Below, in pieces: positions 2,220 to 14,760 of a stretch of DNA of 64,000 bases (position 1 is the first letter of the stretch; every line of letters begins with the position of its first letter). The translations under genes and the position numbers were made by a program. The stretch covers positions 124,001-188,000 of the forward strand of contig WVSM01000007.1 in assembly GCA_015689645.1 (NCBI GenBank). Reading direction: 5' to 3'. The DNA comes from Rhodobacterales bacterium HKCCE4037 (GTDB taxonomy: Bacteria; Pseudomonadota; Alphaproteobacteria; Rhodobacterales; Rhodobacteraceae). Under the pieces are notes generated by a model. That model did not search any database. It was given only the letters and a program-made list of their open reading frames with translations, and was not told the origin of the DNA.

Positions 2220-3617
2220 CTAGGCGAGGGTCGAATTGACCTCGGCAATGACGTCGGCGGCCATCATGACATGGTCGCGCGTGGTGTCGAACTGGCCAAC
2301 CTGGAAGCGGATGACCTTTCGACCGGCGTGCATCCCTTGGGTCAGGTAGATCCGCCCGTCGTCGTTCAGCGCATCGACAAGGCGCTGCTGACGTGCGTCG
2401 TCACCGGGGCAGCGGAACGAGAACAGGCTGAAAATGGGTTCGGTCACGATCTCGAACCCATCCATGGCACGGATCGCTTCGCAGATTTCAACGGCCCAGG
2501 TGATGTGGTTGCGAATGCGCTCGCGCAGTCCGTCGAGGCCATAGGAGCGGATCAGGAACCAGATCTTCAGGGCCCGGAACCGGCGGCCTAGGGGGATGGT
2601 CCATTCCGAGTAATTCGTCACAGGGTTTCCCGAGGTCTTGAGGTATTCCGGTTCGATCTTGAGCGTATTCAACTGCGGCTGCGGATCGCGCAGGAACTGG
2701 ACGGAGCAGTCGAATTGCGCGCCCATCCACTTGTGCGGGTTGAAGACGATGCTGTCGAACCGCTCCACCCCCGGCCAGAAGTCGGCACGGAGTTCCGGGC
2801 AGATCATCGCGGCCCCGGCCCAGGCGGCGTCGAGATGGGTGTAGAGTCCTTCCCGTTCAGCAATGTCGGCAATCGGCGCAAGGTCATCGGCGGCACCGAT
2901 GCCGGTCGCGCCGGTCACCGCGATCATGCCCGCCGGAACGTGACCCGCCGCGCGGTCGGCCTCGATGGCGGCTTGCAAGGCGTTCGGGTTCATCGCGTAG
3001 CGCGGCCCGTGGGTCGGCAGCTTCACGAGGTTTTCCTGCCCGATCCCGGCGACCCAGCAGGCGCGGTCGATCGACGAATGCACCTGGTCCGAGCAATAGA
3101 TGCGCAGATTACCCTTGTTTGCCAGCCCCTCGCGATTGCCGGTGAAGCCTGTCGCCTTCTCACGCATCGTCAACACAGCGGAAAGCGTGGCGGACGACGC
3201 GCTATCCTGAATGACGCCGGTGAAGCCATCGGGCAGGCCCATCGCCTGGCGCAGCCAGTCGATCATCACGCCTTCCACCTCGGTCGCGGCGGGCGAGGTC
3301 TGCCACAACATGCATTGCGCGGCGATGGTCGTCACGAGGAACTCGGCCAGCATCGACGGCGGCGCGGCGTTGGCGGGGAAATAGGCGAAGAAACGCGGGT
3401 GCTGCCAATGGGTGATGCCGGGCATCACGATCCGCTCGAAATCGTCGAGGATGCGCGCCATGCCCTCGGGCGCGTCGGGCGGCGCGGTGGGCAGTTTCGC
3501 GGCGATCTCGCCCGGCTCGGTTTGGGCGCGGACCGGCTTTTCGGCCAATGTCTGGTGGTATTCGGCCGCCCATTCGCTGATCCGCGCGCCCCATTCGGCG
3601 AATTCGTCCCAATCCAT
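2220..3617 (-). CDS. PLP-dependent amino acid decarboxylase (group II, aromatic-L-amino-acid decarboxylase family)
   Basis: A 465-aa group II decarboxylase that would release CO2 from an aromatic or other amino acid to give an amine, in the cytoplasm. The PLP lysine lies in NPHKWMGA (K296), the cofactor-ring aspartate in HLDAAWAG (D263) and the substrate-side histidine in QVHSSIDRA (H180), as in dopa/tyrosine/tryptophan decarboxylases. Start at MDWDEFAEWG is supported by AAGGAGG a few bases upstream. It is first in an operon with the glutamine-synthetase-like ligase (40-base gap) and the iron dehydrogenase, and diverges from a DeoR-type regulator 109 bases away that probably controls it. The exact substrate is unknown. 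Confidence 0.88.
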   Translation of the reverse strand: MDWDEFAEWGARISEWAAEYHQTLAEKPVRAQTEPGEIAAKLPTAPPDAPEGMARILDDFERIVMPGITHWQHPRFFAYFPANAAPPSMLAEFLVTTIAAQCMLWQTSPAATEVEGVMIDWLRQAMGLPDGFTGVIQDSASSATLSAVLTMREKATGFTGNREGLANKGNLRIYCSDQVHSSIDRACWVAGIGQENLVKLPTHGPRYAMNPNALQAAIEADRAAGHVPAGMIAVTGATGIGAADDLAPIADIAEREGLYTHLDAAWAGAAMICPELRADFWPGVERFDSIVFNPHKWMGAQFDCSVQFLRDPQPQLNTLKIEPEYLKTSGNPVTNYSEWTIPLGRRFRALKIWFLIRSYGLDGLRERIRNHITWAVEICEAIRAMDGFEIVTEPIFSLFSFRCPGDDARQQRLVDALNDDGRIYLTQGMHAGRKVIRFQVGQFDTTRDHVMMAADVIAEVNSTLA

Positions 3618-3726
3618 CCTGGCCTCCTTGCTGACGTCCGGCGGACCGTATGCGCCCCCCGAGGGCTTGTCGATGGGACGCAATTGCGGCTTGCTTGCGA
3701 AGGTTCGGATGGGGGACAAGGCGGGC

Positions 3727-4506
3727 ATGAAAAGCAGTTTTCGCCAGACCGAGATCCTCGACATCGCGCGCCGCGACGGCAAGGTGATGGTCGATGACCT
3801 GGCCGCGCATTTCGGCGTGACGGTGCAGACCATCCGACGGGACCTCAGCGATTTGGACGACGGCGGACTATTGGCCCGGGTGCACGGCGGGGCCGTGCTG
3901 AAGTCCGGCACGACGAACCTCGCCTACGGTGAACGTCAGAAGGTCCTGACCGAGGAGAAGCTGGCAATCGCGCGGATCTGTGCCGCAGAAATCCCCGACG
4001 ATTGCTCGATCTTCCTGAACATCGGTACCAGCACGGAAGCCGTCGCCGCGGAATTGCTGAACCACAGGAACCTGCTGGTGGTGACCAACAACCTCAACAT
4101 TGCTCATATCCTCGAACGAAATCCGGATTGCGAGGTCATCGTGACAGGTGGGACGCTGCGGCGCGGTGACGGCGGCTTGATTGGAGCGATCACGGTGGAT
4201 GCAATCCGCCGGTTCAAGTTCGACGTGGCCGTGATGGGCTGCTCGGCACTGGATGCCGAGGGCGACGTGCTGGATTACGACATTCAGGAGGTGGGTGTGA
4301 GCCAGTCGATCATCGCGCAGGCCCGACGCGCCTTCCTGGTGGCGGATCATTCGAAATTCCAACGCTCCGCACCGGGGCGCATTTGCTCACTCGCGGATGT
4401 TGACGCCCTGTTCACTGACCGTGCCCTGCCCCGCGCCCTGTCCGCCGCGTGCCAAGACTGGGGCACGGAGGTGCACGTCGCCTTCGCCGCCGACAGGGCC
4501 ACCTAG
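3727..4506 (+). CDS. DeoR/GlpR-family transcriptional regulator
   Basis: A 259-aa DeoR-type repressor: an N-terminal winged helix-turn-helix (VDDLAAHFGVTVQTIRRDLS, about residues 20-40) followed by the family signature LLARVHGGAV and a C-terminal DeoRC sensor domain (NIGTSTEAVAAELL, VTGGTLRRGDGGLIG) that usually binds a phosphorylated effector. The start with GGGGGACAAGG upstream is chosen over in-frame upstream codons because it gives the normal family length. It is divergent from the decarboxylase operon, its likely target, and its stop is 5 bases from the convergent end of the reductive dehalogenase gene. Confidence 0.9.
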   Translation: MKSSFRQTEILDIARRDGKVMVDDLAAHFGVTVQTIRRDLSDLDDGGLLARVHGGAVLKSGTTNLAYGERQKVLTEEKLAIARICAAEIPDDCSIFLNIGTSTEAVAAELLNHRNLLVVTNNLNIAHILERNPDCEVIVTGGTLRRGDGGLIGAITVDAIRRFKFDVAVMGCSALDAEGDVLDYDIQEVGVSQSIIAQARRAFLVADHSKFQRSAPGRICSLADVDALFTDRALPRALSAACQDWGTEVHVAFAADRAT

Positions 4507-4511
4507 CCCGT

Positions 4512-7500
4512 TCAAAGATCGAGTTCGATCACGCCACCCGCATCGGCGGCGCGGGATTGGCAGGTAATGATCGCCGTCTTGCGCTGTGTGTTCGACAGGA
4601 CAAAATCGCGGTGCTCGACCTCACCGGAGACGAGCCCACATTTGCACACGCCACAAATCCCATCCGAACACTTCAAATCCACCGGGATACCGTTCTCGAT
4701 CAACACATCCGCGGCCGTCCGGTCGGCTGGAACCGGGAATTCCCGGCCCGATCTCGTCAGGCGGATGGTGAACGGGTGGTTCTCGTAATCCGGCAATTCG
4801 GGGACGGAGAAGTATTCGAGGTGCAGGTTGTCTTCGTCGAACCCCGCCGCGCGGGCGGTATCGAGAACGGCGGTCATGTAGGCTTCGGCGCCGCAGGTGT
4901 AGACATGGGCACCGTCGACCGGGCGAAGGATCGAGGCAAGATCCGCACGGGATCCTTCATCGGAGACGTGCAGCGTGGCGCGGTCCGACCACGGCGCATT
5001 CTTCAGCGTCTCGAGATACCCCATCGTCTTTCGCGACCGTCCGGAATAATGCATCTCGAACGGCTGGCCCAATGCATGCAGCCGATGTGCCATCGCGATC
5101 ATCGGTGTGATGCCGATCCCGCCACCCATGAGGTAGGTCATCGGAGCCTCTTCGTGCAGCGGGAAATGGTTGATCGGCTTGGAGATGAAAACCTTGCGGC
5201 CCTCGTTGAAGATACGGTGAAGCAATGCGGAGCCGCCCCGCCCTGCCGCCTCCCGTAACACGCCGATCTGGTATTTCGTCCGGTCCGCCGGATCACCGGA
5301 CATGGAATACTGGCGCAGGAATTCGGGGGCGACGACGATATCGAGATGCGCGCCGGCGTCCCATGCGGGCAAGTCACTGCCGTCGAGGCTGGCGAATTCG
5401 TAGATCGTTATGTCTTCGGCCGACCGTTCGGCCTTGGTGATCTCGACCCGCAGCACAGGGCTTTCATCATAATCGCGGGTCGTGTGGGCCGGCATCTCGC
5501 CCTTGGCAAGTCGCGCCTTGTATTCCTCTGCCGTGATCATGGCCTGGTAGGCCTCGATCCCGGCCTCGCGGTCCATCGGGTAAGGATAGGGATAGGGGTG
5601 CGGGACGAGGGGCGCGGGATAGACGGCAAGTGTCTGATCCTCGTAGCGCAGGTCCAGATCCTTTTGCAGTCCGCGCGCGTTCACCGGCTTTTTCGTCGGG
5701 CGATAACCGCCATCCTCGTCAAGTTCGAGGTCCCACCACCATTTCTTGACCGGGTTCAGGTCGCCCCGCCCCAGCATGTCGTCAAGCCTAGCCAGCGCCG
5801 GTGCGGAGCCGGGAACCTTCATCGCTGTCCAGCGGAACACCGCGTCGCCCAGAACCCCTTCGAGGTTCCACGGGCAGGTCTTCATGCAGCGCCCGCACAT
5901 CGCGCCACCCTCGGTCGTGATCCGGTAGGTCGCGCATTTCTGGCTGTCGGATTTCCAGATTTCGTAGCCGTTGAACATGAGCTTCGGCCCCGCCGTGATC
6001 GCACCCGAAGGGCATTCGCGGGCGCATTTCAGGCAGGAGCCGCAGAAGTCCTGCAAGCCGAAATCGATGGGCTTGTCATGGGCCAGCGGCAGATCGGTTG
6101 TGACCACGCCGGATTTCAGGCGCGGCCCGAGATAGGGGTTCAGGATCACCTCGCCGATGCGACTGACCTCGCCTAGACCGCTCAGCAACAAAAGCGGCGG
6201 TTGAAGCACTTCGCCGTCCATGACCGTATGCGCCTTGGCCTTGTAGCCGAGATTGCGGAGTTGCCGCGCCACGACCCCGCCCAGAAGCGAGAAGCGAAGG
6301 TAGGCCCGCATGGATTGGGCGACGCTGATCCAGTCGTCACCGGATGCGCCCTCCATCGTCTCGTAGCCCTGGTCGATGATCATCGAGATGGCGTTATCGT
6401 GGGGCGGATCGATGGGCTCGCCTGCCGCATCGTGGGAATACCATGTCCAGTCGGGGCAACGGCTGAGACCGACCGCGTCGACGCCGAGGAAGTAGCTGGT
6501 CGCCTTTACGAGGTCGGCGGCCTTGCCGGGGTCGAGCGCGATTTTCTCTGGCGCCGCCTCTCCATCTTGTAGAAGAACGAAGGCCCCGAGCGCGCGCCGT
6601 TGCGCGGACGACGGCGCCGCCTTGCGGGCGTAGCGGCCGCCCGCCGCCCCGTCCTGCAATGGCTTGCCCATATCGCCGAACTGGGCGCGCGCGAACATGT
6701 CGGTGCGTTTGGGCACGCGCGGCACGTTGGCCTCGTCGATGAATGTCGTCGGTTCGTCCACGCGTTTCAGCTTTTCGAACGGGTGCGCGCCTTCGACGAA
6801 TTTCCTCTTTGCATAGGGCTTCGACCCGACCGGCAGGATCGCGGAGGGATGCAGCGGCCGATCCGGCGCGATGTCGAAAGATGTCGTGATGGCCGCGATC
6901 CCGAAATCGGAACCGATGAAAGGGGCCAGCAGACCTCCCTGCCCCGGCACCGCGAGCCCCGCCGCGACAGCAAGGCGATTGAGGTCCACGTCGGACGACG
7001 AGGCCGTATGCGCCCGCGCATCGTGGCCCAGAAGCCGGATGTAATTGGCAATCACCACGGCCGTCTCAGCCGCCAGCAGACCGGAGCGATGGTCGGATGC
7101 CCCCATGATCCAGTCCGTTCCAGGCTCGGCAGCGTCCGGTGCGCGGGGGTGCTGGTAGAGGAAGACGATAGCGTGCGTATGGCCGTCGATCGTGGTCGGC
7201 GGCGCTTCCATCGATTCCTTCAGGTCCGCCATGATCATGTCGATACCCGAGGCCAGCGTCTTGGTCTGCCGAGTGCGCAAGTCCTGCGCGAGGCGCGCAA
7301 TGTCCGGGTTAAGGTGCGGGGTATCCAGTACGGCCTCTCGCGGTAGGGCACAGGTTCCGATCAAGGAGGCATCGCAGAAATAGCCGAATGCTTTCAGGTG
7401 ATTGGCCCGCTCCACCGGATCGTCCGGCGTCTCGGCCATTGCCTTGTTCACGAGACCGTTGCGGATCGCGTCGAGCATCGCGGCGTGATCGCGCATCGCG

Positions 7501-7658
7501 TTCACGATGGAGGCCGGATTGTTATGGTCGACAAAGGACAGCGGCCGAAATTCCGGAACACCGGAGAGATCGACCGCCTCCGTCCGTGCAAGCCGCTCAA
7601 CCCTGTGGCGGCCAAGATGCACAGGGCGGGACTTGTCCGAGAAAATGCGAAATCCCAT
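4512..7658 (-). CDS. rdhA: Self-sufficient cytoplasmic reductive dehalogenase fused to ferredoxin reductase (BhbA/NpRdhA type)
   Basis: A 1048-aa multidomain enzyme. Residues 1-350 are a divergent N-terminal region and residues 360-650 the cobamide-binding reductive dehalogenase core. It has two ferredoxin-type motifs: C539-x2-C542-x2-C545-x3-C549, and C575-x12-C588-x2-C591-x3-C595 ending CPWN. Residues 735-950 are a flavin reductase module (RQYSMSGD flavin motif, GGGIGITPM nucleotide site). A C-terminal plant-type 2Fe-2S domain carries C997, C1002, C1005 and C1033. Y453, K515 and R579 have the same spacing as the catalytic Tyr/Lys/Arg I recall for NpRdhA (426, 488, 552). There is no TAT signal and no membrane anchor gene, which fits a respiration-independent catabolic enzyme taking electrons from NAD(P)H. 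It is last in the homogentisate operon; a halogenated phenolic substrate is inferred. Confidence 0.9.
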   Translation of the reverse strand: MGFRIFSDKSRPVHLGRHRVERLARTEAVDLSGVPEFRPLSFVDHNNPASIVNAMRDHAAMLDAIRNGLVNKAMAETPDDPVERANHLKAFGYFCDASLIGTCALPREAVLDTPHLNPDIARLAQDLRTRQTKTLASGIDMIMADLKESMEAPPTTIDGHTHAIVFLYQHPRAPDAAEPGTDWIMGASDHRSGLLAAETAVVIANYIRLLGHDARAHTASSSDVDLNRLAVAAGLAVPGQGGLLAPFIGSDFGIAAITTSFDIAPDRPLHPSAILPVGSKPYAKRKFVEGAHPFEKLKRVDEPTTFIDEANVPRVPKRTDMFARAQFGDMGKPLQDGAAGGRYARKAAPSSAQRRALGAFVLLQDGEAAPEKIALDPGKAADLVKATSYFLGVDAVGLSRCPDWTWYSHDAAGEPIDPPHDNAISMIIDQGYETMEGASGDDWISVAQSMRAYLRFSLLGGVVARQLRNLGYKAKAHTVMDGEVLQPPLLLLSGLGEVSRIGEVILNPYLGPRLKSGVVTTDLPLAHDKPIDFGLQDFCGSCLKCARECPSGAITAGPKLMFNGYEIWKSDSQKCATYRITTEGGAMCGRCMKTCPWNLEGVLGDAVFRWTAMKVPGSAPALARLDDMLGRGDLNPVKKWWWDLELDEDGGYRPTKKPVNARGLQKDLDLRYEDQTLAVYPAPLVPHPYPYPYPMDREAGIEAYQAMITAEEYKARLAKGEMPAHTTRDYDESPVLRVEITKAERSAEDITIYEFASLDGSDLPAWDAGAHLDIVVAPEFLRQYSMSGDPADRTKYQIGVLREAAGRGGSALLHRIFNEGRKVFISKPINHFPLHEEAPMTYLMGGGIGITPMIAMAHRLHALGQPFEMHYSGRSRKTMGYLETLKNAPWSDRATLHVSDEGSRADLASILRPVDGAHVYTCGAEAYMTAVLDTARAAGFDEDNLHLEYFSVPELPDYENHPFTIRLTRSGREFPVPADRTAADVLIENGIPVDLKCSDGICGVCKCGLVSGEVEHRDFVLSNTQRKTAIITCQSRAADAGGVIELDL

Positions 7659-7732
7659 CGTGGCCTATCCATCCCTTGCCGTGCAGTGTCGCGAAGTCTC
7701 AACCGGAACTGCAGGCATTGGCAATGCCACGA

Positions 7733-7918
7733 TTAAGGACGCGCCGCTTTCAGGGCATCGCGCAAGACGGCGCGGTCGCCGACGTGGTTTGCGAGGATCA
7801 GGATCAGTCTCGCGTTCAGGGCGTCGGATTGATCCTTTGTGAGGCCGTGGTGAGCGGCGATCAACTCGTCGTAGAAGCCGTCCGGCTCGGGGATGTTGGG
7901 CTGCGTGTTCAGGGTCAT
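7733..7918 (-). CDS. DUF2783 family small protein
   Basis: A 61-aa protein (begins MTLNTQPNIPEPDGFY) with the DUF2783 pattern DELIAAHHGLTKDQSDALNARLILILANHVGD. Members are commonly found directly after FAD monooxygenase genes, as here: its ATG overlaps the upstream TGA in an ATGA sequence. The function is unknown; a partner or stabiliser of the monooxygenase is the simplest guess. An in-frame upstream codon exists but lies inside the monooxygenase gene. Confidence 0.8.
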   Translation of the reverse strand: MTLNTQPNIPEPDGFYDELIAAHHGLTKDQSDALNARLILILANHVGDRAVLRDALKAARP

Positions 7919-9516
7919 GACTGGCCTGTTGCGATGGCGAGGGCGGCGAGGATAGCGGCCGGGTCGGCTTCTGGCCAACGCGCCGCGACATGCTGGTCGG
8001 GACGGATCAGGTAAAGTGCCTGAGGCGCTTCCCCGAGGTAGCGCTCGCGCAGGGCATCGCTGAGGTCCGCGTCGGTCAGGGCGAGGTGATCCAGCGGGAG
8101 GGTGCTTTCAACCTCCGGCACCTCCGTTCCAAGCGCGAGCAGCGTGAATTTTCCCTTCAGATGATCGAGCAGAAACCCGTCGGCCAGCGGCGCGTCGGGG
8201 CATGGGCTGCCCGGTCTTGTGCGGGCTGGCCCGTCCAGAGCGTCGGGCCCGTTCAAGGCCATGCCGTCATAGGTGCACGGCACCGAAAGACGCCCGGAAT
8301 TGACCATGGGTCGGGCAAAGGCATGATCCCTGGCGAGTGTCAGGACCGCGTTACGAAAGATCTTCGACATCTCGGATTTCGGCGTCAGGAAGTCCGTGGC
8401 GCGGGTGGAATTCAGGATGTTTTCGTCCGCCCCGTGGGCGCGTTCGTCATGATAGGTGTCGAGCAGGCTGTCGGGGGCCAGACCCTTGAGAACGAGATCC
8501 AGTTTCCACGCAAGATTGTCGGCGTCCTGGATCCCGGAATTCGCACCACGTGCGCCGAAGGGACTGACCTGATGCGCGCTGTCCCCGGCAAAGAGCACGC
8601 GGCCATGGCGGAAGCGTTCCATCCGACGACACTGGAAGGTATAGATCGAGGTCCAGACAAGCTCGTATTCGGTGCCGTCGGGCAGGAACTCGTCGATGCG
8701 TTTGCGGATGCGGGACTCGTCCAGCTCGGCTTTCCGGTCGATGTCCCAGCCAAGCTGGAAATCGATGCGCCAGACATCGTCGGGCTGCTTGTGGAGGAGC
8801 GCGGATTGCGGGGCCTCGGCCAGCGGCGGCTCGAACCAGAACCAGCGCTCGGTCGGGAAATCGGCCTTCATGCGGACATCGGCGATCAGGAAGTTGTCCT
8901 CGAACACGCGGCCTTCGAAGCTGAGCCCCATCATCGCGCGCGTGGGTGAGCGCGCCCCGTCACAGGCGATGACGTAATCGGCCGTCAACTGGTAGGGACC
9001 GTCAGGCGTGTCGATGTCGAGGGTAACGTGCTCGGCGGTCTGCGTGAGCCCGGTCACCACGTTGCGACCCCGAATTTCGATCGGCTTCCCCTCGCCTTCG
9101 GCACGCCGCAGGGCGTCGATCAGGAACTTCTCGAAATAAGGCTGCTGAAGATTGATGAAGGCCGGATTCCGATGGCCATCTTCTGGTAGAAGATTGAAAT
9201 TGAACACTTCGCCGTCGCCGTGAAAGACCCGGCCGACATTCCAGACCACGCCCTTTTCGACCATGTCGCGACCGGCGCCGAGGCGATCGGCGATTTCCAG
9301 CGTGCGCTTGGCAAAACAGATCGCGCGAGACCCCTGCCCGACCCCGTCATGGTCATCAAGGATCAGCGTGGGCGTCCCCTTCTGCGCAAGATCGAGGCCC
9401 GTAGCGACGCCGATGGGACCGCCGCCGATGATGATGACGGGATGGTGCCCTTCGCGCGCGGCCTCCGGGCGGTAGGGGTAGAGTTCGTGGGCAAGGGCGT
9501 AGGTGGCGCCGACCAT
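7915..9516 (-). CDS. FAD-dependent aromatic-ring monooxygenase (MhpA/PheA-like)
   Basis: A 533-aa class A flavoprotein hydroxylase. The Rossmann motif is VIIIGGGPIGVATGLDLA near residue 30, and the second FAD motif RVLFAGDSAHQVSPFGARG is in the normal place. The C-terminal thioredoxin-like tail ends with a typical LYLIRPDQHVAARW segment. Such enzymes hydroxylate phenols with NAD(P)H and O2. Since hmgA, maiA and fahA are upstream in the same operon, a reaction that yields homogentisate (for example from a hydroxyphenylacetate) is the best inference; the substrate is not proven. The start MVGATYALAHE is chosen because AAAGGACGG lies just upstream; a TTG or ATG 7 codons earlier is less well placed. 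Confidence 0.87.
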   Translation of the reverse strand: MVGATYALAHELYPYRPEAAREGHHPVIIIGGGPIGVATGLDLAQKGTPTLILDDHDGVGQGSRAICFAKRTLEIADRLGAGRDMVEKGVVWNVGRVFHGDGEVFNFNLLPEDGHRNPAFINLQQPYFEKFLIDALRRAEGEGKPIEIRGRNVVTGLTQTAEHVTLDIDTPDGPYQLTADYVIACDGARSPTRAMMGLSFEGRVFEDNFLIADVRMKADFPTERWFWFEPPLAEAPQSALLHKQPDDVWRIDFQLGWDIDRKAELDESRIRKRIDEFLPDGTEYELVWTSIYTFQCRRMERFRHGRVLFAGDSAHQVSPFGARGANSGIQDADNLAWKLDLVLKGLAPDSLLDTYHDERAHGADENILNSTRATDFLTPKSEMSKIFRNAVLTLARDHAFARPMVNSGRLSVPCTYDGMALNGPDALDGPARTRPGSPCPDAPLADGFLLDHLKGKFTLLALGTEVPEVESTLPLDHLALTDADLSDALRERYLGEAPQALYLIRPDQHVAARWPEADPAAILAALAIATGQS

Positions 9517-9605
9517 GGTGGCCGTCCTTTCAATCAAGTGCGTCGGCCAATAGAGGTGTCGTTCGGTTCATGGGGTTCTTTCACCAACTTGGCAGACTGT
9601 CCGGG

Positions 9606-9893
9606 TCAGTTCGGTAAGGACCATGAGGTGCTCACGATCCACACGGCGATGAGACTCCCTCCGGCCACGTATCGCCCGAGGTTACGTTTTCTTCGGCATG
9701 CGACGAGCCCGGGACGCGCCAACATTTGCGCCATGTCCTCGTCTCGGTAATATGGCCGGTCTGGGGTACCGAGGTTTTGCAATCTTCCAAGTTCACGTCC
9801 GTACAACGTCCAATATTCTCGTCCCCAATATCGCGAAAAGAACACCGCTCCGATCGCAACGAGAATGAGGCCGATGTTCAGGGCGACAGTCAT
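9606..9893 (-). CDS. Small membrane protein of unknown function (95 aa)
   Basis: A 95-aa protein with two hydrophobic segments, one at residues 2-18 (ALNIGLILVAIGAVFF) and one near the C terminus (GGSLIAVWIVSTSW), separated by a charged loop. I do not recognise the family. Its start overlaps the stop of the MBL-fold gene as ATGA, which strongly supports that it is translated in the homogentisate operon. A second tiny membrane protein is encoded between hmgA and maiA; both may serve an uptake or membrane-association function, which is speculation. Confidence 0.65.
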   Translation of the reverse strand: MTVALNIGLILVAIGAVFFSRYWGREYWTLYGRELGRLQNLGTPDRPYYRDEDMAQMLARPGLVACRRKRNLGRYVAGGSLIAVWIVSTSWSLPN

Positions 9894-10840
9894 CCCTGCA
9901 ATTGTTCCCACATCTCTACATCGCGCTCGGCAGTCCAGATGCGCGGATGGTCGATTCCACGCGCTTCGTCATAGGCGCGGGCGACGTTGAACGGCAGGCA
10001 GTGTTCGTAGATCGCGTAGTCACTGAATTTCGGATCACAGGCTGCGCGCACCGCGTCCCACGCATCCTTGAGCGAGCCGTTCTTGGCGGCAACGCGCGCG
10101 GCCGGGCGGTATGTGCTGTCGACAAAATCGCGGGTGCTTTCGATCGCCCGGTTCACGGCTTCGGAGCCGATCAGCGCGCCGCCCCGCCCCGGTGCGATGG
10201 CATCGAGATCGTAGGCCTTGATCCTGTCCAGCGTGCCACCCCAATCGGCGAAGTGTCCATCGCCGCAGTAGCAGGCGGAGTGGTCTTCGACGATATCACC
10301 GGTGAACATGACGTTTGCATCCGGAACATGGATGACCGCATCACCGGCGGTGTGGGCACGGCCGATCTGGCGAATGTCGACGCGACGGCTGCCGAGGTAA
10401 ACGGTCATGGAGTCAGAGAACGTCGTCGTAGGCCATGTCAGGCCAGGGATGCTTTCGTGGCCTTCGAAAAGGCGCGGGAACCGCTGGAATTCGCTTTCCC
10501 AATCCTCCTGTCCGCGTTCGACCACCATGGAGCGCGCGATGTCGGACATGATCACCTGCGGAGCCTCGTACGCGGACGCGCCAAGCACGCGCACGGCGTG
10601 GTAATGGGTCATCACGAGGTGGGAAATCGGCTTGTCGGTGACCGACCGCACGCATTCGATGACCTTGTTGGCAAGCCGCGGCGTCGCCTGCGCCTCGACA
10701 ATCATCACGCTGTCATCACCGATGATGACGCCCGAATTCGGGTCGCCCTCGGCGGTGAAGGCATAGAGACCATCTCCGATCTCGTCGAAGGTGATGGTCT
10801 TTTCGGTCATGTCACCCTGGGAGGCGAAGGCTTTGGCCAT
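9890..10840 (-). CDS. MBL-fold metallo-hydrolase-like protein with atypical metal motif
   Basis: A 316-aa metallo-beta-lactamase fold protein: N-terminal DGLYAFTAEGDPNSGVIIGDD, an active-site strand HLVMTHYHAVRVLGAS (residues 74-89) and a later GRAHTAGDAVIHVPDANVMFTGDIV segment. The usual HxHxDH motif reads H79-Y-H81-A-V-R, so the Asp and third His are missing, whereas the downstream His/Asp motifs are kept. It could be a single-metal hydrolase or a different activity. The start at MAKAFASQGD is uncertain; MTEKTITFDE ten codons later has a better AGGGTG site. It lies between fahA and a small membrane protein in the homogentisate operon, and its substrate is unknown. Confidence 0.8.
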   Translation of the reverse strand: MAKAFASQGDMTEKTITFDEIGDGLYAFTAEGDPNSGVIIGDDSVMIVEAQATPRLANKVIECVRSVTDKPISHLVMTHYHAVRVLGASAYEAPQVIMSDIARSMVVERGQEDWESEFQRFPRLFEGHESIPGLTWPTTTFSDSMTVYLGSRRVDIRQIGRAHTAGDAVIHVPDANVMFTGDIVEDHSACYCGDGHFADWGGTLDRIKAYDLDAIAPGRGGALIGSEAVNRAIESTRDFVDSTYRPAARVAAKNGSLKDAWDAVRAACDPKFSDYAIYEHCLPFNVARAYDEARGIDHPRIWTAERDVEMWEQLQG

Positions 10841-10918
10841 GGTTAAGTATCCTTGTCGGTGGTGCGGGAGACAGCGTCGGTGGCCTCCGGCGGGAGTTTT
10901 TCTTGCAAGATGAAAGGG

Positions 10919-12169
10919 TCAGGTTGCGAATGGGTCTTCCGCGGCGGGGTGAACTGCACCGGTGCAGGGACCGAACCCGACACGGTAGCCGTTGCCGATC
11001 GCCGCACCGTGGAGCGATAGGGTATCACCATCCTCGATGAAAGTCCGCAGGCCGGACGCGGTCTGGAGTGGTTCTTTTCCGCCCCATGTCAGTTCCAGCA
11101 GGCTGCCGCGCTGATGCTTTTCGGGCCCGGAAATCGTGCCGGTGCCGAGCAGGTCTCCACTGCGCATCGGGCAACCCGACGAGGTATGATGGGCGAGTTG
11201 TTGCGCGGAAGAATAGTAGAGTTCATTCGCGTTCGTTTCGGCAATCGTCTCGCCATTCAGGATCACCGACAGGGCGATGTCATGGTTCATTGGCGTCGTG
11301 TCCTGCAAATGCGCAAGGAGTGGTCTCTCACGCTTCGGCGTGGCTGTCCGGAACGGTGCCAGCGCCTCGGCCGTGACAATCCATGGGCTGATCGTGGTTG
11401 CCGTTGCCTTGGCCTGGAACGGCCCAAGCGGCTGGTATTCCCAGGCCTGGATGTCACGGGCAGACCAGTCGTTCAGCAGCACGTAGCCGAAGATATTCTC
11501 GAACGCCTGATCGACGCTGATCGGGCCGTTCGATGCCACACCGACAATGGCACCCATCTCGAGTTCGATATCGAACCGGCGGGACGGTGCGAAAATCGGG
11601 GTCTCGTGCTCGGGCGATTTCAGCTGGCCCCAGGGGCGCCGGATCGCGGTGCCTGAAACAACCACCGAGGAGGCCCGACCATTGTAGCCGATGGGCATAT
11701 GCAGCCAGTTCGGCGGCAGAGCATTCTCGGGGCCGCGGAACATCGTGCCCACGTTGCTGGCGTGATGGCGGCCGGCGTAGAAGTCGGTGTATTCCGCAAC
11801 CCGGATAGGCAGATGCAGCGTGGCCTCTCCCATTGGCACCGAATAGATGGTGATCGCATCCTGTGCAGCCTCGTTCGCGCCCTCTTCGAGCATGGCGGTC
11901 AGGGCAGCACGATAGGCCGACCACGCCTTGGGCCCGAGTTCCATGAAGTCATTCCAGAACGGCGCGTCGAGCACATCGGCCTCCAGGTCGGCCCGCAGGA
12001 TACCGGCGGCCTCAAGGCCGGTTGCGTCGATGATGCGGTCGCCCAGTGCCACGCCGCATCGCAGGTCGCCGTCCTCGACTGAAAACACCCCGTAAGGCAG
12101 GTTGTTCAGCGGGAAGTCGGCGTCGGGCGCATTGGCGCTCTCGAGCCAGGAACGTTTCAGGTCCGTCAT
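10919..12169 (-). CDS. fahA: Fumarylacetoacetase
   Basis: A 416-aa fumarylacetoacetate hydrolase, the last step of the homogentisate pathway, giving fumarate and acetoacetate. The catalytic/metal region D129-x-Y131...H136 (TDFYAGRHHASNVGTMFRG) has the Asp-to-His spacing of mouse FAH, followed by NDWSARDIQAWEYQPLGPF and the late GTGTISGPE segment. It has full eukaryotic-type length, not the short FAH-superfamily form. The start MTDLKRSWLE shares a base with the maiA stop (TGATG). A 78-base gap separates it from the next gene of the operon. Confidence 0.95.
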   Translation of the reverse strand: MTDLKRSWLESANAPDADFPLNNLPYGVFSVEDGDLRCGVALGDRIIDATGLEAAGILRADLEADVLDAPFWNDFMELGPKAWSAYRAALTAMLEEGANEAAQDAITIYSVPMGEATLHLPIRVAEYTDFYAGRHHASNVGTMFRGPENALPPNWLHMPIGYNGRASSVVVSGTAIRRPWGQLKSPEHETPIFAPSRRFDIELEMGAIVGVASNGPISVDQAFENIFGYVLLNDWSARDIQAWEYQPLGPFQAKATATTISPWIVTAEALAPFRTATPKRERPLLAHLQDTTPMNHDIALSVILNGETIAETNANELYYSSAQQLAHHTSSGCPMRSGDLLGTGTISGPEKHQRGSLLELTWGGKEPLQTASGLRTFIEDGDTLSLHGAAIGNGYRVGFGPCTGAVHPAAEDPFAT

Positions 12170-12807
12170 CAGGTCTCCGTGGCGTCGGGTTGGTTTTCTG
12201 GCGCAGCGGCCAGGATTTCGGGAACGGCGAGGCAGGCCTGCTCGATCCGGGCGATCTTCGGATATGGATTGAGCGACAGGCCCCAACGATGAGCATTGAC
12301 GCATTGCGCGACGATGCAGAGGTCGGCGAGGTCCGGCGCATCGCCGAAGGCAAAACCTTCCTTCTCGGGGAGCATCGCCTGGAGGGTGGCGAAGCCCTCG
12401 GCCATCCAATGCTGCATCCAGTCGCGCTTGCCTGCCACGTCGGCGCCGAAGCGAGCCTCCAGTTGACGGAGCAGGCGCAGATTGTTGACCGGGTGAATGT
12501 CGGTCGCCACGACGAGCGCGGCCGCGAGCTGCCTCGAACGCGTGATGGCATCGTTCGACACCATCGGCGGGTCCGGATAAGTCGCATCGAGATAATCGAT
12601 GATCGCAAGGCTTTGGGTCAGGATCGTGCCGTCGTCGAGTTTCAACGCCGGCACGCCGTAACCGGCGTTGATCGCACGGTACGCGGCCTCGTGTTGTTCG
12701 CCGGTGTAGAGGTTCACGGAGATCTGCTCGTACTGCACGCCCTTAAGATTGAGCGCCGCACGCACGCGGTAGGAAGTGGTAGACCGCCAGTAGCCGTAAA
12801 GGATCAT
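12169..12807 (-). CDS. maiA: Maleylacetoacetate isomerase (zeta-class glutathione S-transferase)
   Basis: A 212-aa zeta GST that isomerises 4-maleylacetoacetate to fumarylacetoacetate using glutathione. The N-terminal thioredoxin domain carries GYWRSTTSYRVRAALNLKG, a variant of the SSCS-YRVR signature with Thr instead of Cys, then NAGYGVPAL and the glutathione-binding LTQSLAIIDYLD. The all-alpha domain follows. It overlaps the gene upstream by ATGA and the gene downstream by TGATG, so it is tightly coupled between the 45-aa peptide gene and fahA. Confidence 0.93.
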   Translation of the reverse strand: MILYGYWRSTTSYRVRAALNLKGVQYEQISVNLYTGEQHEAAYRAINAGYGVPALKLDDGTILTQSLAIIDYLDATYPDPPMVSNDAITRSRQLAAALVVATDIHPVNNLRLLRQLEARFGADVAGKRDWMQHWMAEGFATLQAMLPEKEGFAFGDAPDLADLCIVAQCVNAHRWGLSLNPYPKIARIEQACLAVPEILAAAPENQPDATET

Positions 12808-12941
12808 GAGCGCTCACCGTTCCGCTCACCGGTGTCGCGTGCCCGGGCTCCGGCCCGCCTTGCGATGGCAATCACCGCAAACGGTGCCGCCGTCGTGACG
12901 ACGATGACCAGGCCGATGATGATCCAGGCGGTCGTTGTCAT
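12804..12941 (-). CDS. 45-aa single-helix membrane peptide in homogentisate operon
   Basis: The frame begins [20 protein letters not shown] and ends [13 protein letters not shown]: one transmembrane helix (about residues 5-28) and a basic, hydrophilic tail. The ATG overlaps the hmgA stop (ATGA) and its own TGA overlaps the maiA ATG (ATGA). A frame that fits exactly between two genes with both overlaps is strong evidence for translation despite its size. No family is recognised. It resembles other one-helix peptides found in catabolic or transport operons; its function is unknown. Confidence 0.65.
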
Positions 12942-14293
12942 TTCTTGCCCGGTGTGCCGTCGAATTTCTTCTCCAGCGAGGTCCAGCAGTCGATGTAGTC
13001 ATCCTGCAGCGGTGCTTCGGATGCCGCGAACGCGGTCAGGTGCTGCGGGAACCGGGTCTCGAACATGAAGGACATGGTGTTGTCGAGCTTGTCCGGCCCG
13101 AGGTTCGCATTCGACGCTTTCTCGAACGCTTCGCGGTCCGGACCATGGGGCAGCATCATGTTGTGCAGGCTCATGCCTCCGGGGATGAACCCCTGAGGCT
13201 TTGCGTCGTACTGGCCGTAGATGTTGCCCATCAGCTCGGACATTATGTTCTTGTGATACCACGGCGGGCGGAAGGTATCCTCGGCCACCATCCAGCGTTC
13301 GCGGAACAGGACGAAGTCGATATTGGCGACCCCCTCCTGACCGGAGGGCGCAGTCAGCACCGTGAAGATCGACGGGTCGGGATGGTCGAACAGGATCGCG
13401 CCGACGGGGCAATAGGTCTTCAAATCGTATTTCAGGGGTGCGTAGTTGCCGTGCCAAGCCACGACGTCGAGGGGCGACTGCCCGATCTCGGTCCGGTGAA
13501 ATTGTCCGCACCATTTTACGGTGACGGTCGAGGGGACCTCGCGATCTTCATAGGCGGCCACCGGAGCCTTGAAGTCGCGCGGGTTGGCCATGCAATTCGC
13601 GCCGATGGGCCCCCTGCCCGGAAGCGCGAACTTGGCGCCGTAGTTTTCACAGACGAAGCCGCGCGCAGGACCATCGAGCACTTCAACCCGGTAGAGCAAC
13701 CCGCGTGGGATGATAGCGATTTCTTGCGGCTCGATATCTATGATGCCAAGCTCGGTGCAGAACCGCAGCCGGCCTTCCTGCGGCACGATCAGCAACTCGC
13801 TGTCCGCGGAATAGAAGTAATCATCCACCATCGACGCAGTGACAAGGTAGATGTGGCTTGCCATGCCGACCTGGGTATTCACGTCACCGGCTGTCGTCAT
13901 GGTGCGCATGCCCGTGAGCCATGTCAGCGGCGTCTCGGAATGCGGCACGGGCGACCAACGGTACTGGCCAAGCGACGTGACATCGGGATCGACGTTCGGC
14001 GCGGACTGCCAATACGGCAGGTCGATTTTCTCATAGCGATGCGAATGTTTGACCGAGGGTCGAATGCGGTAGCACCACGTCCGCTCAGGGCGCACATCGG
14101 TGAAGGCCGTGCCCGAAAGCTGTTCGCCATAGAGACCGTAATTCACCTTCTGGGGCGAATTCATGCCTTGTGGCAAGGCACCAGGCAGCGCCTCTGTTTC
14201 GAAATCGTTGCCGAAGCCGGGCATATAGCCCTCGTGCGCGCCGGGATGCGACGGGGCCTGCACCATGGGCCGGGGCGTGGATTGTTCTGTCAT
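12938..14293 (-). CDS. hmgA: Homogentisate 1,2-dioxygenase
   Basis: A 451-aa ring-opening iron(II) dioxygenase converting homogentisate to maleylacetoacetate. The N terminus has the family pattern [19 protein letters not shown]. The iron ligands are in [14 protein letters not shown] and [13 protein letters not shown], with His-to-Glu and Glu-to-His spacings (6 and 30) equal to those of the human enzyme (H335, E341, H371). It is the first gene of the operon; a perfect palindrome and the probable promoter lie directly upstream. Tyrosine/phenylacetate-type aromatics are the usual source of homogentisate, but no hydroxyphenylpyruvate dioxygenase is present in this window. Confidence 0.96.
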
Positions 14294-14760
14294 GGCATCC
14301 TCCCAAGTTGCCTTAATGCATAACGGTTACTTTTGTAACCAACAACCCCGATAGCTGGCGACGAAGTGTGCATGGATTGCGATACATGCGCAGTCGACTC
14401 TCCACGCGTCATGCAGTCGGGGCAGTCGGTTTCTCAGTTAGATCACTGTGGCACGCGTGACGCTCGATGCGGCTGCATGACCACTTTCGAATACCGACCA
14501 CCGAGAGTGTTTGTGACCTTGGAAAATGTTCTTGAGCGGACTCTGGGTCGGCAGCGGAAGAAACCGTAGCGGCATTGGCGAGAGACGGATGGATGCCGCG
14601 AGCCCGAACCGTCGAAAGTTAGCCACTTGATCGGCGCACCAATCTTCGCCAACGCGCGCATTGCGAATTCACGTGCTTGCTCGGGCAAATGGGTATCCAG
14701 GACCCGTCCTGATTGGCCCGGGACTTTGGGAGGCGCGGGCTTCTGATCAACGCAGCGGGT
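14294..14760. other. 467-base region without a convincing gene
   Basis: It lies between hmgA and the end of the chemotaxis operon. It holds the hmgA palindrome. On the minus strand the frame continuing after the stop of the 117-aa che protein is open for about 105 codons (down to 14443) and has no recognisable domain. A 67-codon plus-strand frame (14366-14569) overlaps it. Neither has a good ribosome site. It may be a decayed gene or element. Confidence 0.4.
14325..14340. promoter_or_regulatory. Perfect palindrome upstream of hmgA, candidate operator
   Basis: GGTTACTTTTGTAACC: 6-base arms around a TTTT spacer, 32 bases before the hmgA start codon. The position suits a repressor site overlapping the promoter or leader of the homogentisate-dehalogenase operon. 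No regulator gene is adjacent, so the binding protein is unknown. Confidence 0.45.

Follow-up and report, generated by a model that had tools for sequence, protein, structure and literature searches.

Self-sufficient reductive dehalogenases, in which an RdhA part is fused to a reductase of the phthalate dioxygenase type (RdhA-PDOR), form an enzyme class that is already known and widespread, as exemplified by BhbA from Comamonas sp. 7D-2 and by JtRdhA from Jhaorihella thermophila, a member of the same order as the genome studied here. JtRdhA is driven by NADPH, is active aerobically and converts bromo- and iodophenols but leaves chlorophenols untouched; its best tested substrates are 4-hydroxybenzoate and 4-hydroxyphenylacetate with bromine ortho to the hydroxyl group, 3-bromo-4-hydroxyphenylacetate being debrominated at 99% of the best rate, and the enzyme enables E. 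coli W to grow on this compound (PMC10463259). The strings 'homogentis' and 'operon' are absent from the main text of that report. As for the formation of homogentisate, PMC3053370 describes MhaAB of Pseudomonas putida U, a 566-aa FAD protein with a 60-aa coupling protein that converts 3-hydroxyphenylacetate (3-HPA) to homogentisate and whose relatives adjoin hmg genes in B. xenovorans; 1-hydroxylation of 4-HPA towards homogentisate is also cited there.

Organization of the gene run

The window, that is, the whole stretch of DNA analysed, comprises 64,000 nt of Rhodobacterales bacterium HKCCE4037 (GCA_015689645.1, contig WVSM01000007.1, positions 124,001-188,000). On its minus strand, from 14293 down to 4512, lie hmgA, maiA, fahA and the genes for an MBL-fold protein, a FAD monooxygenase, a DUF2783 protein and, last, an RdhA fusion (Table 1). 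An earlier note on this DNA had described these ORFs, in this order, as a single strand-coherent run; the curated models agree, and each of the three homogentisate enzymes exceeds its curated cut-off. The statement that most genes overlap by 1-4 bases holds if two small ORFs that the note did not include are counted (five of eight junctions) and fails for the seven named genes (two of six). Neither small ORF found a family match in Pfam/NCBIfam profile searches. Two junctions inside the run have spacers of 78 and 89 bp, and rdhA is separated from the DUF2783 gene by 74 bp, a gap that could provide space for a separate rdhA start. The run ends at a convergent DeoR-family gene, the two stops being 5 bp apart; further on, outside the run, lies a decarboxylase gene whose product is most similar in the PDB to decarboxylases of DOPA and tyrosine (7xin, E=1.2e-115). 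An Rfam scan of the whole window at gathering thresholds returned no match.

Table 1. Features of the run and its surroundings (window positions).
Feature	Position	Strand	Basis
Aromatic-L-amino-acid decarboxylase, possible tyrosine/halotyrosine decarboxylase	2220..3635	-	PF00282
DeoR-family regulator	3727..4506	+	PF00455, PF08220
rdhA, RdhA-PDOR fusion, 1048 aa	4512..7658	-	TIGR02486, PDB alignments, motifs
DUF2783, 61 aa, candidate MhaB-like coupling protein	7733..7918	-	PF10932, 108.4 bits
FAD monooxygenase, 533 aa, candidate MhaA-like hydroxyphenylacetate hydroxylase	7915..9516	-	NF006002, 749.3 bits (cut-off 416); FAD_binding_3
Small ORF, 95 aa, partly hydrophobic	9606..9893	-	ORF call
MBL-fold metallohydrolase	9890..10840	-	PF00753; PDB 8d2z, E=1.2e-110, name gives no function
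fahA, fumarylacetoacetase	10919..12169	-	TIGR01266, 473.8 bits (cut-off 375.3)
maiA, maleylacetoacetate isomerase	12169..12807	-	TIGR01262, 248.9 bits (cut-off 171.05)
Small ORF, 45 aa, N-terminal half hydrophobic	12804..12941	-	4-base overlaps with hmgA and maiA
hmgA, homogentisate 1,2-dioxygenase	12938..14293	-	TIGR01015, 633.9 bits (cut-off 510.75)
Operator-like palindrome TTGGTTACAAAAGTAACCGTTA	14321..14342	-	upstream of hmgA

The RdhA fusion

The fusion scores 196.3 bits against the NCBIfam RDH model TIGR02486 (cut-off 160.35); Pfam PF13486 (Dehalogenase) gave no match at E<=0.001. Both 4Fe-4S motifs reported in the earlier note are in place, with cysteines 539/542/545/549 (CGSCLKCARECP at 539) and 575/588/591/595, as are the C-terminal flavin and 2Fe-2S modules: residues 732-1045 resemble phthalate dioxygenase reductase (PDB 2pia, E=1.8e-57), with a Pfam Fer2 domain at 967-1037. 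The motifs RQYS, GGGIG and CxxxxCxxC, located by eye, we take to be those of PDOR for FMN, NAD(P)H and 2Fe-2S. NpRdhA of Nitratireductor pacificus (4ras, 6zxu) aligns with residues 3-106 and 159-718 (E=1e-157), covering the catalytic core and the N-terminal region, in which the duplication is vestigial. The Tyr/Lys/Arg set at 453, 515 and 579, proposed before to have NpRdhA spacing, equals its Y426/K488/R552 (numbering of PMC10463259), and the 4ras alignment is without gaps there. A twin arginine indicative of a TAT signal was sought in the N-terminus, MGFRIFSDKSRPVH, and none was found. The genome carries CobS. A structure prediction for the fusion, made from a 22-row alignment, was discarded (mean pLDDT 60.8, pTM 0.52, pLDDT <50 across most of the Fe-S region).

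These sequence features support the prediction of a self-sufficient catabolic RdhA. By likeness to BhbA and JtRdhA, it would be cytoplasmic and oxygen-tolerant, with electrons passing from NAD(P)H through FMN and 2Fe-2S of the C-terminal reductase to the two 4Fe-4S clusters and on to cobalamin, which would take off a halogen ortho to the phenol hydroxyl; the latter may be held by Ser449, Lys515 and Arg579, with Tyr453 as the proton donor. The aerobic dehalogenation claimed earlier thus finds support in the analogy with JtRdhA, and an enzyme that behaves similarly should turn over bromo- and iodophenols, not chlorophenols.

Residues S449, M450, Y453, K515 and R579 are invariant in all 96 rows of the family alignment. 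The pocket is unlike that of NpRdhA at M321, Y343, A/V344, V446 and V479, and across the 96 rows these five positions do not split hmg-linked enzymes from the others. Position 344 alone leans: Ala stands in 2 of 15 linked rows and in 34 of the 81 others, and the enzyme of the window has it too. As the pocket residues do not set the linked rows apart, no substrate shift is visible.

The probable hydroxylase pair and a proposed route to homogentisate

The FAD monooxygenase, whose likely start is the ATG at 9516, and the DUF2783 protein (533 and 61 aa) are encoded beside the hmg genes with a 4-base overlap. Compared by size and context with MhaAB as described above, the pair shows the same combination of a large FAD protein, a partner of ~60 aa and adjacent hmg genes, the difference being that the partner here is DUF2783, which has no known-structure relative at E<=0.1. 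By this analogy the two proteins plausibly make homogentisate from hydroxyphenylacetate, in keeping with the hydroxylation step suggested in the earlier note. Profile searches of the window genome gave no recognisable match to HPPD, which scores above its cut-off in 43 of the 61 genomes sampled from the order, and none to HpaB. The genome does have PobA (60% identity), through which 4-hydroxybenzoate left by debromination could alternatively be channelled to protocatechuate.

That outlet bears on a reading modelled on Comamonas plasmid pBHB, in which the substrate would be 3,5-dibromo-4-hydroxybenzoate and the product would go via PobA to protocatechuate, not homogentisate. BhbA is the closest characterised relative among the plasmid records searched, its gene has protocatechuate 4,5-dioxygenase genes ~1 kb away, and in three loci of the order (L044, L060, L061) pobA stands directly 3' of rdhA. 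In the window genome, however, pobA is on a contig other than that of rdhA, and the genes just before rdhA encode the pair that is the probable source of homogentisate; we consider this route improbable. Another possible role would be the debromination of bromohomogentisate or of a brominated quinol, which would keep HmgA unblocked. Bromohomogentisate is likewise an ortho-bromophenol, and the placement of rdhA with hmgA would fit such a task. Yet the best substrates of JtRdhA are of the 4-hydroxybenzoate and 4-hydroxyphenylacetate type, and no hydroquinone is in the substrate lists consulted in PMC10463259, so we consider this role very unlikely.

Regulation

The palindrome upstream of hmgA is retained at 20-22 of its 22 letters upstream of hmgA in eight other loci of the genus, from which the consensus was drawn, and at 10-20 letters in the remaining hmg loci scanned; its core, GTTACAAAAGTAAC, occurs once in the genome. 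It was not found upstream of rdhA genes, where the best site had 16 of 22 letters and a single shuffle of each region reached 15 at most. A promoter in the gap between the DUF2783 gene and rdhA was likewise rejected: the sigma-70 scan gave none, and the gap sequences, compared by eye, show no convincing likeness from genome to genome. The scan yielded a single site, where shuffled sequence would give 2.1, with none on the operon strand and none at hmgA; because it also misses any hmgA promoter, it says little about co-transcription.

Linkage of rdhA to homogentisate genes

Relatives of rdhA are present in 186 of 390 sampled genomes of the order. The earlier note had proposed a search for the same gene order in other Rhodobacterales, and the linkage does recur: of the 171 genomes having both genes, 10 place rdhA no more than 10 kb from hmgA, whereas random placement in a 4.1-Mb genome expects 0.83. 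This exceeds the per-genome random expectation ~12-fold, in four genera and three arrangements, with same-genus genomes not independent. A genus-level chance estimate, which depended on a presumed number of genera, was dropped. In one genus (L023, L114, L115), rdhA stands 46 bp behind an hmg-type MarR gene and is read in its direction, divergent from hmgA. The neighbour family that recurs most often is the FAD monooxygenase, in 9 of 77 loci, compared with 8 for either of two TRAP-transporter families. On the rdhA tree the hmg-linked state changes nine times, at least six changes being forced by the starred branches; 22 of 96 rows with a flank of <4 kb were left out, 4 kb on both sides sufficed for the label 'unlinked', and one locus (L071) was counted as unlinked with the operon end 7.6 kb away and hmgA off the locus.

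In the other 161 of 171 genomes, rdhA lies >10 kb from hmgA or on another contig, the latter in two close relatives (G119, G029). The neighbours of rdhA vary: some loci have genes for TRAP transporters, others MarR genes or PobA, and others nothing that recurs. Such variety, the many unlinked genomes and a pocket that does not tell linked from unlinked rows are what one would expect if rdhA were a broad-specificity module for bromophenol removal that settles in many places, its spot behind the homogentisate genes being opportunistic and its product not bound to enter the operon. The excess of hmg linkage over random placement and the arrangement behind the hmg-type MarR gene speak against this, and we regard it as a rather unlikely explanation, though one to be taken seriously.

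Discussion

Our preferred reading, to which we assign a probability of about 0.55, is that the run serves debromination of a bromo-hydroxyphenylacetate, its hydroxylation to homogentisate and ring cleavage, with rdhA as the last gene under control at the hmgA operator. Reaction, substrate, co-transcription and regulation are what we infer here from the observed gene content and order, the active-site and cofactor motifs, the recurrent linkage and the conserved palindrome. The likeliest substrate would be a bromo-hydroxyphenylacetate, with the brominated tyrosine of marine organisms as one example of a source; after debromination, the FAD monooxygenase and its DUF2783 partner would form homogentisate, and HmgA, MaiA and FahA would convert it to fumarate and acetoacetate. 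A more far-reaching version, which we find doubtful, adds the decarboxylase and sees the whole as an aerobic route devoted to brominated tyrosine. The amino acid would be decarboxylated and oxidized to bromo-hydroxyphenylacetate, RdhA would remove the bromine, and the product would be hydroxylated to homogentisate before its ring is opened. A single MarR operator, responsive to the homogentisate pathway, would govern part of this route, and marine bacteria of the order would have put rdhA and the hmg operon together several times.

The overall reading of the earlier note thus survives as regards the self-sufficient RdhA, the hydroxylase pair, the run and the recurrent linkage, and is weakened by the 161 unlinked genomes, by a pocket that does not distinguish linked enzymes and by the fact that enzymes of this class are already known and common. 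The coupling of rdhA to a homogentisate operon looks new. Roughly one in two of the genomes sampled from the order carries this poorly understood enzyme, for which the cited literature gives test, not natural, substrates; the homogentisate run suggests a natural job. The repeated tie to homogentisate catabolism points to a specific class of candidate substrates and to a hypothesis on the inducer, and connects the enzyme with the marine bromine cycle. If this holds true, halogenated hydroxyphenylacetates would be a further source of homogentisate.

The operon without rdhA is also present in other Alphaproteobacteria. The hmg operons of D. shibae pDSHI02 and S. fredii pSfreNXT3a share hmgA, the MBL-fold gene, a FAD oxidoreductase gene and DUF2783, together with fahA or a fumarylacetoacetate hydrolase family gene and, in S. 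fredii, maiA; in the stretches examined, hmgA adjoins a MarR gene and rdhA is lacking, whereas the window run includes rdhA, and the nearest hmg-type MarR gene of its genome is on another contig. NpRdhA has the identical triad and, unlike the window fusion, is without a reductase domain (PMC10463259). BhbA of plasmid pBHB (NC_021077.1, WP_015585978.1) shares the RdhA-PDOR architecture, with 50.1% identity over residues 3-1048, and also sits in an aerobic ring-degradation cluster; that cluster, however, serves the 4,5-cleavage of protocatechuate instead of homogentisate breakdown and includes a TTT transporter binding protein, and the two enzymes differ at pocket positions 321, 343, 344, 446 and 479. 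JtRdhA, likened here by its description, is likewise a self-sufficient RdhA-PDOR with the same Tyr/Lys/Arg triad and without a TAT signal, and its host, like that of the window, is a marine bacterium (PMC10463259).

Gene run in the window

The earlier note had described a minus-strand run in which rdhA, encoding a reductive dehalogenase–reductase fusion, closes a homogentisate (hmg) operon. Its gene content and order were borne out by ORF reading and curated families: hmgA, maiA, fahA and the dehalogenase exceed the NCBIfam curated cut-offs, DUF2783 exceeds the Pfam cut-off, and the FAD monooxygenase is a member of NF006002 (749.3 bits). The further claim that most genes overlap holds for five of the eight junctions when two small ORFs are counted, among them the 4 bases shared by the FAD monooxygenase and the 61-aa DUF2783 gene. 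It fails for rdhA, which begins 74 bp past DUF2783; at its other end a DeoR-family gene converges on it, with the stops 5 bp apart. The MBL-fold protein, whose counterparts in the scanned hmg operons of relatives show 82–91% identity, is conserved almost as highly as HmgA; it matches PDB 8d2z, and no part in the pathway is known for it.

Features of the window, its genome (G000) and related loci
Feature	Location	Strand	Basis or likeness
hmgA, 45-aa ORF, maiA, fahA, MBL-fold gene, 95-aa ORF, FAD monooxygenase, DUF2783, rdhA fusion (1048 aa)	window 14293-4512	-	ORF reading
MBL-fold gene	window 9890-10840	-	PDB 8d2z
Aromatic-L-amino-acid decarboxylase	window 2220-3635	-	closest to DOPA and tyrosine decarboxylases
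hmg-type MarR of G000	L136:9468-9863, contig C6	-	sequence match
Second reductive dehalogenase of G000, 404 aa, stand-alone	L002:1378-2592, contig C1	-	TIGR02486, PF13486
FAD oxidoreductase with GcvT domains, 811 aa (genome G069)	L103:3232-5667	-	dimethylglycine/sarcosine dehydrogenase-like
hmg-type MarR frame, Jannaschia marina	L059:13198-13623		
Single frame, maiA-like part and hmg-type MarR part	L008:13302-14177		

Linkage of rdhA and hmgA

Across 390 genomes of the order (presence threshold E<=1e-100), rdhA was found in 186, hmgA in 293 and both in 171, on one contig in 52 of the latter. They lie within 10 kb of each other in 10 of the 171, against 0.83 expected from random placement (the genomes are not independent); the ten are a lower bound, given contig ends and the uncounted second hmgA of genomes G271 and G352 and second rdhA of G093 and G223. 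Gene order was read in each of the ten. The window genome shares strand and order of rdhA and the hmg operon with three others of its genus (G069, G079 and G007), rdhA is divergent from hmgA in G003, G028 and G331, and it converges with the operon end in G362, G315 and G347. Beyond the ten, the two genes are 19 kb apart in G244 and 32 kb apart in G030. Among 80 named GTDB loci, many with short flanks, hmgA is within 10 kb of rdhA in eight (L004, L010, L011, L016, L023, L037, L074 and L083), and in L071 the operon end is 7.6 kb from rdhA; the two sets overlap, L004, L023 and L010 being the same contigs as in G079, G028 and G362, respectively. The search for the window gene order that the earlier note had proposed recovered it in G069, G079, G007 and locus L016; the rdhA of L016 does not belong to the window genus clade.

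In a tree of 96 RdhA proteins, 22 of which were excluded from the count of linkage changes, the 15 hmg-linked and 59 unlinked rows require nine changes, at least six of them forced by starred branches, and every linked row sits inside one 54-row part (midpoint root). Elsewhere rdhA neighbours TRAP transporter genes, a different MarR gene or pobA (L044, L060 and L061). The gene acts like a debromination module that can move and has repeatedly come together with a pathway capable of consuming what it makes. Lineages other than that of the window also have the operon, without rdhA: in both Dinoroseobacter shibae pDSHI02 and Sinorhizobium fredii pSfreNXT3a, hmgA is accompanied by a fumarylacetoacetase-type gene and by MBL, FAD oxidoreductase and DUF2783 genes, and a MarR gene adjoins hmgA.

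Some loci show further arrangements. The Sulfitobacter genome G362 has two hmgA genes, the rdhA-linked one on contig C10 and the other on C84. In the J. marina locus the MarR frame directly follows rdhA, hmgA being absent within the locus, and the single frame just past rdhA in L008 may be what is left of an hmg operon.

Putative control region

The palindrome TTAGTTACAAAAGTAACTGTTA lies about 50 bp upstream of the window hmgA, and the eight loci from elsewhere in the genus that supplied its consensus (L103–L108, L110 and L112) match it at 20–22 of 22 letters. Best matches in the other hmg loci scanned were 10–20 of 22, lowest in D. shibae, where hmgA is downstream of the MarR gene; loci L118 and L074 carry a different palindrome, GTTGCATATGCAAC. 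The window genome has a single copy of the core, GTTACAAAAGTAAC, and that copy precedes hmgA. In L023, L114 and L115, hmgA and rdhA are separated by an hmg-type MarR gene that is read on the same strand as rdhA, 46 bp ahead of it, so that rdhA would come under the same divergent control region. The nearest hmg-type MarR of the window genome is 62% identical; a weak operator-like site (16/22) lies immediately upstream of it, and its neighbours resemble, by eye, aldehyde dehydrogenase, enoyl-CoA hydratase and CoA-transferase.

Proposed pathway

The best-supported reading is that a bromo-hydroxyphenylacetate would be debrominated by the rdhA product, the hydroxyphenylacetate hydroxylated to homogentisate, and the homogentisate cleaved. 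Pseudomonas putida U is reported to convert 3-hydroxyphenylacetate to homogentisate with MhaA (566 aa, FAD) and the coupling protein MhaB (60 aa), and genes resembling this pair adjoin hmgA1B1C1 of Burkholderia xenovorans (PMC3053370). We identify the FAD monooxygenase and DUF2783 protein as a candidate MhaAB pair, by size, order and context. The window genome (99.93% complete, 36 contigs) gave no match to HPPD or to HpaB; of 61 genomes sampled from the order, 43 have HPPD above cut-off, including the three further congeners sampled. The candidate hydroxylase was the only homogentisate-forming enzyme found among those searched there.

Against this reading, most rdhA relatives are unlinked to hmg, pocket residues do not separate linked from unlinked rows, and the window genome contains PobA, which could accept debrominated 4-hydroxybenzoate. 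Past the DeoR gene, in the window as in G069, G079 and G007, sits an aromatic-L-amino-acid decarboxylase that could supply a (bromo)tyramine precursor; this is a lead only: genes that by eye resemble an inositol cluster adjoin it. The 811-aa gene of G069 lies between rdhA and deoR, where G079 and G007 have a gap of similar size; the window is without it.

Comparison with known dehalogenases

Among the open-licence papers searched on reductive dehalogenases and halo-hydroxyphenylacetates, mostly through titles and abstracts, we found no description of rdhA in a homogentisate operon. Putative bhbA homologues are reported to be widely distributed in the Roseobacter clade, and a Roseobacter debrominase, Ros_A3X954, was reported in 2026 (PMC13101508); judged by motif positions, it appears to be of the shorter, unfused type. 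Its reported motif, CAICMRVCP, also occurs in the second dehalogenase of the window genome (TIGR02486, 162.4 bits against a cut-off of 160.35; PF13486 also above cut-off).

The window fusion covers NpRdhA with residues 3–106 and 159–718 (phmmer, E=1e-157) and phthalate dioxygenase reductase with residues 732–1045 (E=1.8e-57). Y453, K515 and R579, which the earlier note had set at the NpRdhA spacing, align with NpRdhA Y426, K488 and R552. The hydroxyl-binding and catalytic S449, K515, R579 and Y453, plus M450, are invariant in all 96 family rows, whereas of the pocket residues named in the NpRdhA crystal paper (PMC7565698) the fusion has M321 for F290, Y343 for F310, A344 for P311, V446 for A419 and V479 for N452. 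The closest characterised relative among plasmid records, BhbA of Comamonas pBHB (50.1% identity over residues 3–1048; 51% in our separate alignment), has F, S, V, S and A at the five corresponding positions. The functional precedent is JtRdhA, a marine enzyme reported to work aerobically with NADPH, to turn over bromo- and iodophenols but not the chlorophenols tested, to act on 3-bromo-4-hydroxyphenylacetate at 99% of its best rate and to let E. coli W grow on that compound (PMC10463259). JtRdhA shares the architecture of the window fusion, and the enzyme class is therefore already known.
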